IMG/VR virus record: IMGVR_UViG_3300036886_000103
Coordinates: 1 to 41,398 of that record
From: a virus
DNA: 41,398 bases
Reading direction: 5' to 3' (one strand)
The notes under the pieces are model-generated. The model was not told the origin of the DNA, searched no databases, and saw only the letters and a program-made list of their open reading frames with translations. Below, piece after piece: positions 303 to 40,243 of the stretch (position 1 is the first letter of the stretch; every line of letters begins with the position of its first letter). The translations under genes were made by a program, and so were the position numbers.

Positions 303-1043
303 TTAAAATGGAATATCCTCCGGTTTAACATTTTCGTTTAATATTTGTTGCGGTTGCTCAACTTCTACTTTACTTAATCTATCAACAATAGCTGACGCTT
401 GATTTATTTCAAGATCGTTTAGACTAGTTATATTATATGCTTTGTAAATATCTTCTTTTGTTTTTCCTTTAAGAGGAAGTAAAGCTAAAATCTTTTTTAA
501 TTGAAAGTCCGTTGCTAATACTTTTACTTTAGGTTTTATTGTTACAGGACTACCATTTGTTACTGGTGTTATCCCGTCCATTTCTTCAACAGGAGTTGCC
601 TTATATCCAGCCAGTACCACTACCCACGATAATACTTGACGCAAGGCTTTTGCTCCTGATCTGGTCTGTGCCATACTTTTAATCGCATATAATGGTTTAT
701 TCTTCCAGTTACCCTCATCTGTCATACATAAGCCCTCGGCCCCGCCTACCTCTCGGCCTTGACTATCAATAACAACGGACTTTGACTCAAACCCCTCAAC
801 CCCTCCGTATTCAACGTGTTGGGTTTCAACTGTCTTGACTGTCATTCCATAAAATTTAGCTACTGTCTGCCATGCTTCAAAACATAAATAATCATTACCC
901 TGTATTTTGACAGACCAACCATTTTGCTTTACAACTTTTATAAGAGCTTCTGCAGCCCTTTTTCCGTCTTGTAACAACTTGGCCGGAGAGGCGATAAGTG
1001 ATACTCCTTGTCCTTTTGGTTTGACTATTTGTTGGTTTTCCAT
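303..1043 (-). CDS. Phage recombination / ssDNA-type protein with an SSB-like C-terminal tip
   Basis: A 246-aa product from the ATG 1043-1041; an upstream ATG at 1088 would overlap the previous gene by 41 bp, whereas the chosen start follows its stop by 4 bp. The central conserved part (AEGLCMTDEGNWKNKP, SMAQTRSGAKALRQVLSW, VVLAGYKATPVEEM) belongs to a phage family I remember beside recombination genes; its biochemical role is not something I can name securely. A linker rich in charged residues leads to the last six residues PEDIPF, which match the acidic D-D-I-P-F tip of bacterial single-stranded-DNA-binding proteins. Genes upstream in the same operon are a coiled-coil protein and a replication protein, which fits a DNA-metabolism role such as ssDNA binding or annealing. 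Confidence 0.6.
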   Translation of the reverse strand: MENQQIVKPKGQGVSLIASPAKLLQDGKRAAEALIKVVKQNGWSVKIQGNDYLCFEAWQTVAKFYGMTVKTVETQHVEYGGVEGFESKSVVIDSQGREVGGAEGLCMTDEGNWKNKPLYAIKSMAQTRSGAKALRQVLSWVVVLAGYKATPVEEMDGITPVTNGSPVTIKPKVKVLATDFQLKKILALLPLKGKTKEDIYKAYNITSLNDLEINQASAIVDRLSKVEVEQPQQILNENVKPEDIPF

Positions 1044-1047
1044 ATTT

Positions 1048-1953
1048 TTATTTAACACTGACGGCTTGAAAAATTCTAATTCCGTCAATTTGTCTTATAC
1101 CTGATTTTATTCCCTGATTTATTTTCTTACTATCCGGACTACAAAATGCTCTTGGTATTTTTTTCTCATCAATCACTTCCCATGTCCAGCGTTTAAAAAT
1201 ACCCTTAACTTTAAGCTCTGCCTCTTTTCTTGCTTTCTCAATTTCCGCTAATCTCTTTAATTCCATTTCCCGTCTTTCCTCGTCTAACTTTTTCTTTTCT
1301 TCCTCGGCGTCTCTTTTCATTCTTTCTACTTCAAGCTTTTCTCTTTCCAGTTTCTCTTTCTCAAGTCTTTGCTTTTCTGCCTCTTCCCTTATTTTTCTTT
1401 GTTCAGTTTCGTTAAGACGCTTACTTTCAATTTCTTTTGCTAATCTTTCCTCTTCAAGTTTTCTCAATCTATCTTGTTCTACTTTTAATTTCTTTTCTTC
1501 TTCTTCTCTTTTTAATTTCTCAATTCTTTCCCTCTCTAATCTTTCTTCTTCCAATTTTATCAACCTTTCTCTTTCCTCTGCCATTGCTTTTTCTTCTAAT
1601 TCCCTCTTTATTTTCTCTTGTTCCTGATCGTAGGACAGTATCTTTGACTTGACTAAATTTTGAGCTTCAAGTAATGGGATAGCTGTTGATTTAAATAAGG
1701 CGTTGACTTCCGAGATAAAATTGCCAACCGGAACTGTTATCTCTCTTCGCTTGGCTTCTAAATTCTGGATAGTCAATAAACATTCTTTCTTTAACATATC
1801 GGCTATCTGTTTGTCTTCAATCTTTTTAATCTCTAAAGCCTTTGCCTTACTGACTAATGAATTACCTATAAGAGCAAATGTTTTAGCGTCTTTTTCCGCT
1901 TTTATAATACTAACCATTGTTCCTATTTTGTCCTGATCTATTTTGTCGTTCAT
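1048..1953 (-). CDS. Long coiled-coil phage protein of the recombination module
   Basis: A 301-aa product. Residues about 1-110 form a mixed helical N-terminal region, residues about 110-245 are an uninterrupted Glu/Lys/Arg-rich coiled coil, and the last 50 residues are a compact conserved domain (WTWEVIDEKKIPRAFCSPD, then GIKSGIRQIDGIRIFQ). In other phages this C-terminal domain usually lies next to recombination or annealing proteins, as here. It could be a scaffold for recombination complexes, but that is inference. The gene has its own sigma70-type promoter with a palindrome at the transcription start. The pyrimidine-rich opposite strand gives several long meaningless frames here. Confidence 0.65.
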   Translation of the reverse strand: MNDKIDQDKIGTMVSIIKAEKDAKTFALIGNSLVSKAKALEIKKIEDKQIADMLKKECLLTIQNLEAKRREITVPVGNFISEVNALFKSTAIPLLEAQNLVKSKILSYDQEQEKIKRELEEKAMAEERERLIKLEEERLERERIEKLKREEEEKKLKVEQDRLRKLEEERLAKEIESKRLNETEQRKIREEAEKQRLEKEKLEREKLEVERMKRDAEEEKKKLDEERREMELKRLAEIEKARKEAELKVKGIFKRWTWEVIDEKKIPRAFCSPDSKKINQGIKSGIRQIDGIRIFQAVSVK

Positions 1954-1968
1954 AATGTTTAATAATTG

Positions 1969-1980
1969 ATAACTAGTTAT
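1969..1980. promoter_or_regulatory. 12-bp perfect palindrome at the transcription start (probable operator)
   Basis: ATAACTAGTTAT is a perfect palindrome immediately downstream of the TATTAT box, covering the predicted start of transcription of the 1953 gene. A repressor bound here would block initiation; candidate repressors are the phage's own XRE (35412-35684) or RHH (40520-40699) proteins. Confidence 0.45.
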
Positions 1981-2009
1981 ATAATAATATAATATATTTC
2001 ACTTGTCAA
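1981..2009 (-). promoter_or_regulatory. Sigma70-type promoter for the coiled-coil/recombination genes
   Basis: On the minus strand TTGACA (2009-2004) is followed after exactly 17 bp by TATTAT (1986-1981). Predicted transcription starts near 1974, about 20 nt before the ATG at 1953. The -35 box lies inside the 3' end of a possible 22-aa ORF. Confidence 0.65.
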
Positions 2010-2067
2010 TAGGATAATTTTCTCTAATAATCGCTGTGTCGGTGATGATTGGGTGGTATTCGGTCAT
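1999..2067 (-). CDS. Possible 22-aa peptide
   Basis: The ATG at 2067-2065 overlaps the stop of the replication gene as ATGA, the standard coupled junction here. The frame gives MTEYHPIITDTAIIRENY plus four residues and ends TGA at 2001-1999. Its end contains the -35 box of the next promoter. It may be only a by-product of that junction; nothing about function can be said. Confidence 0.3.
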   Translation of the reverse strand: MTEYHPIITDTAIIRENYPIDK

Positions 2068-2537
2068 AGTGGTATATCTTCAGGATTAACTCTCTCATTC
2101 ATTTTGTCTTTATTCTCTTTCTTATTCTTATTGTAATTCTTATTCTTATTCTTAGGGGTGTATAGAGGGGTGGTAACAGGGGTGTACAAGTTAGCCTCAT
2201 ACCATGTTCTTACATCCGGCGATAATTCTTCAATTAGCTTTAATTTAGCATTTTCATTATCTTTACCTATATATTTCTCATATTTCCAAGCGTTCTTCAA
2301 AAAAACGAAGTCTTCAAAAAATAAAATACTTCTGTTGATTTTCTTTTTGATTTGGGTTATTTCGGGAACGGTTAGTCCGGTAGATAAAGAAGTAACCATA
2401 TCGGGGCATTCATAGAAATGAATTACATTAACAAATTCATTAGTAAAATAGAAGACGAACAATAGTTTTTCTTTAGGTGTTAGTTTTATAAAAAAACTGT
2501 CCCGCCAAATTTTAGTTTGTAGTTGTCGTGCTTTCAT
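2064..2537 (-). CDS. Phage replication protein, winged-helix N-terminus, SSB-like C-terminal tip
   Basis: A 157-aa product. Residues 1-80 (KARQLQTKIWRDSFFIKLTP, then KEKLLFVFYFTNEFVN) match the N-terminal winged-helix domain common to phage replisome-organiser/DnaD-like initiator proteins. A lysine/asparagine-rich linker (about 125-150) then leads to PEDIPL at residues 152-157, nearly identical to the tip of the protein encoded two genes downstream and to the SSB C-terminal tip. The protein probably binds the phage origin and helps recruit host replication proteins; no helicase or polymerase is encoded nearby. It is shorter than typical two-domain initiators, as the second DnaD-type domain is not evident. 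Confidence 0.6.
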   Translation of the reverse strand: MKARQLQTKIWRDSFFIKLTPKEKLLFVFYFTNEFVNVIHFYECPDMVTSLSTGLTVPEITQIKKKINRSILFFEDFVFLKNAWKYEKYIGKDNENAKLKLIEELSPDVRTWYEANLYTPVTTPLYTPKNKNKNYNKNKKENKDKMNERVNPEDIPL

Positions 2538-3683: not shown

Positions 3684-3992
3684 ATGTCGAACCAACCTAT
3701 GGTCAAATTCAAACCAGCTCCAGGAATAATAATCGCTCAACAAATAGAGGACTCCAATAAAAATACAATAACAATAACTTCAAAGAGCGACTCACACTTA
3801 AACAAAGGTAAGGTAATTGCTATGGGTGGTGACTTAACTACTCCTATGGGGAACATCATCAAGGCCAATAAGTATTGTAAGGTTGGCGATATCATTTACT
3901 TCTTAAGTTACGAAGGAAATTACGACAATACTACGATAAACGGTAAAAAATATTTTGCAATTAAGTTTGAAGATATGAGGTTTTCAATATGA
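3684..3992 (+). CDS. groES: GroES-like co-chaperonin (Cpn10)
   Basis: A 102-aa product, the usual Cpn10 length. It follows the family pattern: N-terminal P-x-x-G-I-I (PAPGIIIAQQIE), a flexible polar stretch at residues about 22-38 where the mobile loop lies (TITITSK is the likely GroEL-binding segment), then KGKVIAMGGD, KVGDIIYFLSY and GKKYFAIKFEDM near the end. It would cap the chaperonin encoded two genes downstream during ATP-driven folding. Sequence is very divergent from bacterial GroES, as phage co-chaperonins often are. It has its own leaderless promoter and its stop overlaps the next start as ATGA. Confidence 0.8.
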   Translation: MSNQPMVKFKPAPGIIIAQQIEDSNKNTITITSKSDSHLNKGKVIAMGGDLTTPMGNIIKANKYCKVGDIIYFLSYEGNYDNTTINGKKYFAIKFEDMRFSI

Positions 3993-4145: not shown

Positions 4146-5741
4146 ATGGTTAAAACAAAAGTCATCTTTGGCAAAGAAGCCAAAGCAAAAATAATGGAAG
4201 GCGTTAACATAATGGCTGATGCGGTTTCAAACACGCTGGGGCCAAGAGGGTTGAACACTGGTTACGTCAAAGCAATTCCTAGTGGAGAAGTTTATGCTAG
4301 GGAAATAAACCACGATGGGGTTAGTACGGCACGGGCGATTGACTTAAAAGATGAGGCGGCAAACTTTTCCGCACAAATACTAAAAGAGGCTGCTCAAAAA
4401 CAATGCGATGTTGTAGGAGATGGGACAACATGTGTAGTCATCTTGGCTCGTTCTATTCTTGAGGAATGTATGCAAATGGTTAGTACCGGTGTAAACCCAA
4501 TGGCGCTACGCAAGGGTTTGGAGGACGGCTCTAGTCGTCTAATTAAACGCTTGGAGAAGTTGTCAACACCACTCAAAACTTACGAGGAGATGGTGCATAT
4601 TGCAACCATTTCAGCCGAGGACGCCTACTTAGGCAAGTTAGTCGCTGATACGCTTAAGAAAGTAGGTAGTGATGGAGTGGTTGACGTAGAGGAGAGCAAA
4701 GGCGCTGAAACGACTGTTGACTACCAACAAGGTATGCAAATAGACAAAGGCTACATTCATCAACTCTTTATTACAAACCCTGAACGGATGGAGGCGGTGT
4801 TTGAGTCCCCCCAAATTCTAATAACCGATAAGTCAATTACCTCGCTTGTCCCCCTAACTAACTTACTTAACGCATTGACTAAAGACGATATTAGACGTCC
4901 AATTGTCATTATCTCGCCCGACATCTCAGGCGAGGCCCTGCCTCTTTTAATTCAAAACAAACTCAAAGGACAACTTATTAGTCTATGTATCAAAGCGCCT
5001 TCGTTTGGGTTGGATCAAAAGAATATCCTACAAGACATAGCAATATTGACTGGAGCTAAGTTTATCACTGAGGACGCTGGACATCGCTTTGAGGACGTAA
5101 CAACTGACGATCTTGGCGAGGCCGCCTATGTTACTTCAACTAAAGATGAAACTATCATATCAGGCGGGTATGGTGATAAAACTAAACTTAAAACACGGAT
5201 AGAGCAAATAAGACGAGAGCTTGAGGAGGAGGGAAGCGACTTTGACAAGGAAAGATTAAAGGCACGTTTAGGCAAACTATCAAGTGGTATTAGTGTTATT
5301 AGTGTAGGAGGGGCAACTGAGGTTGAGATGAAAGAGCGGAGAGAGAGAGTGATAGACGCTGTGTCAGCCCTGAGGAGCGCTATGAGTAAGGGAATTGTAG
5401 CGGGTGGGGAGGTAATGTTTTTGGAGATAAGAAATTCTTTAGGTAAAAGTGTTACTGATAGGATACTTTTTAATGCCTTAGCCAAGCCTTTCAAAAAACT
5501 AGTTGAGAACGCTGGATATGATGGAGGAGAACTTATAGCAAGGCGTGAGTATAGTAAACGAGCTTATCAGGAAAATACTGGTTTTGACGTTACTGACGGT
5601 AAATTCAAGGACATGATAAAGTCCGGTATTGTTGATCCAACTGAGGTACTGATAGAGGCTATTAAAAACGCTGTTAGTGTTTCCATACAATTGGTAAGTA
5701 CTGGAGTTATTATAGTTCCTGAAGTTATTGAAAAGAAATGA
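4146..5741 (+). CDS. groEL: GroEL-type chaperonin (Cpn60)
   Basis: 531 aa, full length for Cpn60 with all three domains. Equatorial/ATP motifs are present: LGPRG 31-35, HDGVS with Asp57 (E. coli Asp52), VGDGTT 90-95 with Asp92 (Asp87), Asp404 in RVIDAV (Asp398) and the GIVAGGE loop 416-422 (one Gly of GGG replaced by Glu). The apical region (about 180-370) keeps hydrophobic substrate-binding positions. The C-terminal GGM tail is absent; the protein stops at PEVIEKK. At the inter-ring contact, E. coli R452/E461/S463/V464 align with K450/D459/G461/E462, so the salt bridge may persist while the neighbours differ. It lies between groES and the packaging genes and probably folds a virion protein such as capsid or portal. 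Confidence 0.96.
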   Translation: MVKTKVIFGKEAKAKIMEGVNIMADAVSNTLGPRGLNTGYVKAIPSGEVYAREINHDGVSTARAIDLKDEAANFSAQILKEAAQKQCDVVGDGTTCVVILARSILEECMQMVSTGVNPMALRKGLEDGSSRLIKRLEKLSTPLKTYEEMVHIATISAEDAYLGKLVADTLKKVGSDGVVDVEESKGAETTVDYQQGMQIDKGYIHQLFITNPERMEAVFESPQILITDKSITSLVPLTNLLNALTKDDIRRPIVIISPDISGEALPLLIQNKLKGQLISLCIKAPSFGLDQKNILQDIAILTGAKFITEDAGHRFEDVTTDDLGEAAYVTSTKDETIISGGYGDKTKLKTRIEQIRRELEEEGSDFDKERLKARLGKLSSGISVISVGGATEVEMKERRERVIDAVSALRSAMSKGIVAGGEVMFLEIRNSLGKSVTDRILFNALAKPFKKLVENAGYDGGELIARREYSKRAYQENTGFDVTDGKFKDMIKSGIVDPTEVLIEAIKNAVSVSIQLVSTGVIIVPEVIEKK

Positions 5742-39406: not shown

Positions 39407-40243
39407 TTAACTAAATAAATCTTTCTCCAAATATTCCCCTAAATACATTCCTTTTTTACCAAATACTTTGGCTTTTCCTTTTACAAAAACTATCATCACA
39501 CCAAGTTTTAGGAAATTAAAAAACCAATGCTTTATAGGCAATCCTAAAACTACTTTTACGGCCCAATATGAAGTCGCCCCGACCTGATCCCCGACCTGAT
39601 CCCAGACCTGACCCCAGACCTGATCCCCGACCTGACCCCCGACCTGATCCCAGACCTGACCCCAGACCTGACCCCAGACCTGACCCCTGACCTGATCCCC
39701 GACCTGACCCCAGACCTGACCCCAGACCTGACCCCCGACCTGATCCCTGACCTGACCCCAGACCTTTTTAGGTATTTTTTTCTTAATGTCTATAAGGCGA
39801 GGTAATTTAGTCGCCTGATAAGGATTGTATTTTTCAATCGGTTGTTTTTTGAATTTATTTATTTTGTCTTGAAAAATTAAGAGTAGAGGATTAACCTTTT
39901 TGGCTAAATTATGGAATTTGGGTTCAAGTAACTTATCCCATTCATTAGGAACTTTCTTTAACCATTTGGCTAACTTTACATCAGTATTAAAGTTCTTTTT
40001 AACGGACTTTTCCACTAACTTTTGAGCTTTATTTTCGTCTATCTCATCCAGTATCTCTTGAGCCACTTGGTCGTAGTGGACTTGTCTTACTTCCTTTTCC
40101 CACCATAGATACTCAAATTTTCTAAACTTATCCCCGTCTATTTTTAACTGACTTTCAGCGTCTGAATGAGAATTAGTATTACCATAGACTGCTTTCTTAT
40201 TGTTAGCGAAAAAGGCGACTCCTTCACACATAATTTTAAGCAA
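39407..40243 (-). CDS. Protein with 15 tandem [W/R/G][G/D]QV tetrapeptides
   Basis: 278 aa (ATG at 40231, MCEGVAFF, is an alternative start). Residues 1-140 are helical and charged ([31 protein letters not shown]); residues 162-221 consist of 15 exact tetrapeptide repeats in which the first position is Trp, Arg or Gly, the second Gly or Asp, and the last two always Gln-Val; residues 225-278 form a hydrophobic beta-rich end ([16 protein letters not shown]). The repeat pattern implies a regular beta-solenoid or amphipathic helix presenting variable residues on one face. I recall W-x-Q-V repeats in uncharacterised proteins (DUF6745-like), without known activity. Confidence 0.65.
39581..39760 (-). 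repeat. 15 x 12-bp tandem repeat within a gene
   Basis: Fifteen consecutive 12-mers of coding-strand form NGGG(G/A)TCAGGTC, with N being T, A or G. Only base 1 and base 5 vary, and both change the amino acid; none of the other ten bases, including all wobble positions, changes in any unit. Confidence 0.9.

Follow-up and report, generated by a model that had tools for sequence, protein, structure and literature searches.

Why two different early proteins of one phage should end like a bacterial SSB is the question raised by this locus. The C-terminal peptide of bacterial SSB, which has the form DDDIPF in E. coli, docks the partner proteins of SSB. The locus lies at the left end of a record from an uncultured phage (IMGVR_UViG_3300036886_000103); the window is the whole stretch analyzed, 41,398 bp in length. 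On the minus strand, the early operon consists, 5' to 3', of a 90-aa ORF (2554-2826), gene C (2064-2537, 157 aa, stop at 2064-2066), gene B (1048-1953, 301 aa), and gene A (303-1043, 246 aa, stop at 303-305). The window lacks a direct terminal repeat, the ORF at its end continues for just a few codons into the opposite end, and the record is possibly incomplete.

Read directly in translation, the proteins encoded by genes A and C end in QQILNENVKPEDIPF and ENKDKMNERVNPEDIPL, respectively. This confirms the PEDIPF and PEDIPL ends reported in an earlier note on this DNA, and the likeness is longer than was noted. The tail of A (NENVKPEDIPF, 306-338 on the minus strand, tip PEDIPF at 306-323) and the tail of C (NERVNPEDIPL, 2067-2099 on the minus strand, tip PEDIPL at 2067-2084) share the pattern NE-x-V-x-PEDIP-[F/L], with 8 of 11 residues identical. 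Both have an acidic-I-P-hydrophobic sequence at the extreme C-terminus; the last residue is Phe on A only, and gene C ends in Leu instead. The charged linker that had been described before both tips is present in C, where it is K/N-rich and roughly 25 residues long, but A fits that description only loosely. The coiled-coil-like protein of gene B ends in AVSVK and carries no tip. Composition-based estimates for the approximately 100 window ORFs of at least 60 aa put the chance per ORF at about 5e-8 for PEDIP[F/L]; for a loose SSB-type tip it is 3.6e-5, and only A and C match that looser pattern. By sequence, the two tails are SSB-type docking tips and not products of chance. Their DNA is identical at 25 of 36 nucleotides. 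Because 8 of 11 residues are shared while the codons are mostly different, the tails do not come from a recent DNA duplication, and they are either old copies or have converged.

Gene A matches phrog_19042 (E 2.6e-14), for which the function is unknown, and weakly matches phrog_9721, a "single strand DNA binding protein" family (E 0.03). On this weak evidence, the protein may be of the ssDNA-binding or annealing type. A Pfam search of gene A gave no match and no recognised OB/SSB domain, comparisons with PDB sequences and phage records gave none either, and the single-sequence AlphaFold model (pLDDT 38) was too low in confidence to use. Alignment with L333 and L250 indicates that the C-terminal helical region of A (about residues 176-225) is common to its phage homologue. 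Gene B has a weak match to phrog_10477 ("exonuclease," E 3e-4). Gene C matches phrog_25711 (5e-5), phrog_6251 ("replisome organizer DnaA-like," 1e-4), and phrog_1701 ("DnaD-like helicase loader," 0.03); it has the conserved N-terminal domain of the replisome organizer/DnaD-like type but no DnaD-like C-terminal domain. Gene C had no Pfam match either, and the bacterial SSB domain (PF00436) was absent from both A and C. Because A is weakly similar to ssDNA-binding/annealing-type proteins, an SSB tip on A is less surprising than one on C.

The suggestion that the phage has no helicase or polymerase of its own held up for this possibly incomplete contig: none of the 24 window proteins compared with PHROGs, some of them also with Pfam, matched such a family. 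Elsewhere in the window, a GroES-like protein (3684-3992, identified by eye) and GroEL (4146-5741, Cpn60, E 1.4e-57) adjoin the packaging genes, and relatives L003 and L004 apparently also encode GroES-like/GroEL proteins beside their packaging genes. A 278-aa protein with a long tandem repeat (39407-40243) had no match in a family search.

The earlier note had staked its reading on homologues keeping the tip at the extreme C-terminus, and those examined do not keep it. The SSB-type tip is absent from all of the roughly 29 C relatives examined, comprising the 23 with a readable C-terminus among 24 found in IMG/VR, L251-L253, and three named-phage relatives. The sole informative relative of A (L333) retains the two-part layout of A and ends in ENLGEEK, with no tip. 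This absence argues against an ancestral, family-wide function of the tip, not against its recent acquisition. Several relatives of C have an extra DnaD-like C-terminal region, including L251 (phrog_1701 over residues 3-255) and L265, which is 42% identical to C with similarity limited to the N-terminal domain. Several short relatives also lack that region, and 9 of the 23 IMG/VR relatives are about as short as C (157-178 aa) and tipless. A frameshift is not an obvious cause of the short C-terminus, and such an origin of the C tail was rejected, since no trace of a lost domain lies in the intergenic DNA that follows C. On the contigs of C relatives that were examined, the only convincing tip-bearing proteins were in G445 (an SSB ending in IDPDDLPF) and G453 (ending in INPEDIPF).

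Single-sequence searches of IMG/VR with A, B, and C found no close relatives, and a further IMG/VR scan for relatives of A returned only the contig already known. Direct searches of the terminase relatives L002-L006 found no homologue of A or C. Phage G002, whose terminase is 58% identical to that of the window, likewise has no A or C homologue. Its ssDNA-binding protein (phrog_8542, 1192, 1607) ends in LNERVDPSEIPF, and the tail NERVDPSEIPF is almost the NERVNPEDIPL of C; no homologue of this protein was found in the window. Another relative, phage G003, encodes a 126-aa protein (L004:2884-3264, minus strand) with a zinc-ribbon-like CPKCG stretch and the end INEEPPF, another possible SSB-like tip. 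The best reading of these comparisons is that the tips on A and C are not inherited family features and that an SSB-type docking tip was acquired convergently.

Tails in the form of Patescibacteria SSBs provide a hint at the host. In 84,980 bacterial and archaeal genomes scanned for proteins ending in NPEDIPF, at least 118 records matched. Among the matches listed, and counting by record titles, a taxon is given for 96 of 118, in every case one of the Patescibacteria (Nomura-, Kaiser-, Campbell-, and Roizmanbacteria, Elulimicrobium, and others), and for the other 22 none is given. An SSB signature is present in 99 of the 118 ORFs listed, which are overwhelmingly chromosomal SSBs ending in YPEEEINPEDIPF. 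Chromosomal Patescibacteria proteins with the NPEDIPF end and no SSB signature were also seen (L168, L137, L236, L145, and L242), of which L168 resembles by eye the small subunit of exonuclease VII. SSB tails differ within Patescibacteria: those of Roizmanbacteria and similar lineages end in E-x-VNP[ED]DIPF, and those of the G017 relatives end in PINLDDIPF or PIDLSEIPF. The ERVNPEDIPL of C is nearest to the VNPEDIPF form of Roizmanbacteria-type SSBs. Lineage-specific SSB tails of this kind (L303-L331, L247-L249) might help to assign phages to hosts. Evidence from outside the tails is thin: Patescibacteria genomes contain distant C relatives (L251 at 1e-18), and a relative of the window terminase was found in just one of 379 Patescibacteria genomes. 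That the host is probably a member of the Patescibacteria (CPR) follows chiefly from the tail match. The earlier proposal that the phage copies the SSB docking peptide of its host gains from the match to the Patescibacteria SSB tail, which is not a chance resemblance, and loses from the tipless homologues.

The reading we favor, with a probability of roughly 55%, is that A and C, early DNA-metabolism proteins of a probable Patescibacteria phage, each acquired a docking tail of the host SSB form ([I/V]NPEDIPF) that would recruit host SSB partners; which host is infected, that the tails dock and on what, and what the phage gains are inferences. The N-terminal domains of A and C would bind phage DNA, and the acidic, hydrophobic-ended tails would draw in the usual docking partners of host SSB. 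Candidate partners include the primase DnaG, RecG, RecO, RecJ or RecQ-type proteins, and, in genomes that have it, PriA. Of 322 Patescibacteria genomes sampled, only 117 have a PriA over the curated cut-off, and the three whose SSB tails (VNP[ED]DIPF) are most like that of C (the Roizmanbacteria genome G007, G175, and G207) do not. Because PriA falls below the cut-off in most sampled genomes, PriA or a helicase loader cannot be assumed to be the target. In SSB-interacting proteins, the terminal Phe of the tip is buried in a pocket, a basic lip holds its carboxylate, and a basic ridge receives the acidic residues (PMC10164576, PMC5872125). Removal of the terminal Phe from the E. coli tip abolishes binding (PMC10164576). 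The Leu that ends C at this position is a weakness of the docking reading, and the lack of conservation among relatives also counts against it.

Another account, less probable than the favored one but a serious contender, is that A in effect serves the phage as its SSB or annealing protein, with the usual SSB tail, and that the tail of C came from within the phage, either from A or from an SSB gene since lost. In that case, the match to the host would mean only that a phage SSB had adapted, rather than that a tail had been copied for another role. Among 2.9 million viral contigs (IMG/VR) scanned for proteins ending in PEDIPF, at least 119 stretches matched, and the matches listed include at least 88 distinct proteins of at least 60 aa, many of them canonical SSBs. 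Fifty-five others among the matches listed were scanned; ssDNA-binding and RecT/Bet-type annealing proteins predominated among those annotated, next to one RusA-like, one Mu Gam-like, and one baseplate protein and two HNH proteins. The predominance of ssDNA-binding proteins among the viral matches listed supports this account, as do the tip on a RecT protein (L034), the weak similarity of A to an ssDNA-binding PHROG, the resemblance between the A and C tails, and the NERVDPSEIPF end of the SSB in a relative phage. However, A has no recognised OB/SSB domain and no Pfam match, its homologue L333 has no tip, and the tip on C is left unexplained. In support of the favored reading, SSB-type tips recur on non-SSB phage proteins (RecT, Mu Gam-like, RusA-like, and a clade of primase-helicases). 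ENVKPEDIPF, as on A, terminates an unrelated 193-aa phage protein in L125.

The tails could instead act inside the phage: the C tail might bind an SSB-tail site of another phage protein, such as A, or the A tail might regulate DNA binding by A itself. This we consider improbable. The C-terminal domain of Sak from Staphylococcus phage 80alpha works via the SSB tail (PMC11846896), HK620 Sak4 requires the last six residues of SSB (PMC5928155), and the core of A is followed by a C-terminal helical region, all of which would fit; however, A gives no sign of a tail-binding pocket, and the match to the host SSB consensus extends beyond the core tip (NPEDIP), which host partners explain better. That the tails are functionless resemblance, by chance or in decay, is very improbable despite the tipless homologues, the Leu of C, and the similarly short relatives, since so rare an end occurs twice in one operon with synonymous codon differences.

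If the favored reading of host-form docking tails is correct, phages graft the docking peptide of a host hub onto non-SSB replication proteins, a phage with no recognised helicase or polymerase of its own has a route to start replication, and the SSB tail becomes a sequence cue by which uncultured phages can be linked to their hosts, Patescibacteria for example. A bolder and more tentative extension, which we think doubtful, is that C is a replisome organizer turned recruiter, in which a host-lineage SSB tail replaces the helicase-loader domain and calls host SSB partners directly to start replication; together with the primase-helicases described below, SSB-tail grafting would then be a general means by which phages exploit the replication machinery of their hosts.

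To judge by sequence, an SSB-type docking tail, with a putative docking function, sits here on non-SSB phage proteins. Like the C-terminal peptides of bacterial SSBs (DDDIPF in E. coli; YPEEEINPEDIPF and EDVNP[ED]DIPF in Patescibacteria), the tails of A and C have acidic residues, Ile-Pro, and a hydrophobic last residue; unlike bacterial SSBs, A and C have no recognised SSB OB domain, and the last residue of C is Leu. Phage ssDNA-binding proteins of HK620 (SSB ending in NDYPPF, PMC5928155) and G002 (NERVDPSEIPF) carry the same type of tail and also belong to phage DNA metabolism, but the G002 protein has no counterpart in the window. The annealing proteins 80alpha Sak and HK620 Sak4 act on the SSB tail, whereas A and C carry it. 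Phage replisome organizers and DnaD-like helicase loaders (phrog_6251, phrog_1701, phrog_25711) share the N-terminal domain of C, which differs in having no DnaD-like C-terminal domain and in bearing a tip seen in no relative examined.

A parallel in kind is provided by TOPRIM primase-helicases of Tenacibaculum, Cellulophaga, and Flavobacterium phages, which are likewise non-SSB replication proteins and have at their extreme C-terminus an SSB-like tip in which x-P-F follows acidic residues. The protein of Tenacibaculum phage JQ ends in SEDDVPF, and JQ-like proteins end in DEVPF (Cellulophaga phi10:1), SDVPF (Flavobacterium sniff9-2 and snork6-1), KEIPF (elemoC), and DDFPF (vB_RanS_PJN03). The tip is present in all six JQ-like proteins examined, from Bacteroidota phages and vB_RanS_PJN03 (L007:3243-5045, L377, L378, L380, L381, and L384), and in none of three relatives from Vibrio, Pseudomonas, and Escherichia phages. 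We found no published description of such tips on phage primase-helicases in the open-licence papers searched. These proteins are unrelated to A and C, and they suggest that SSB-like tips occur on phage replication proteins more widely. By sequence comparison, their tip persists across deep divergence and is kept by distant relatives, in contrast to the tips of A and C.
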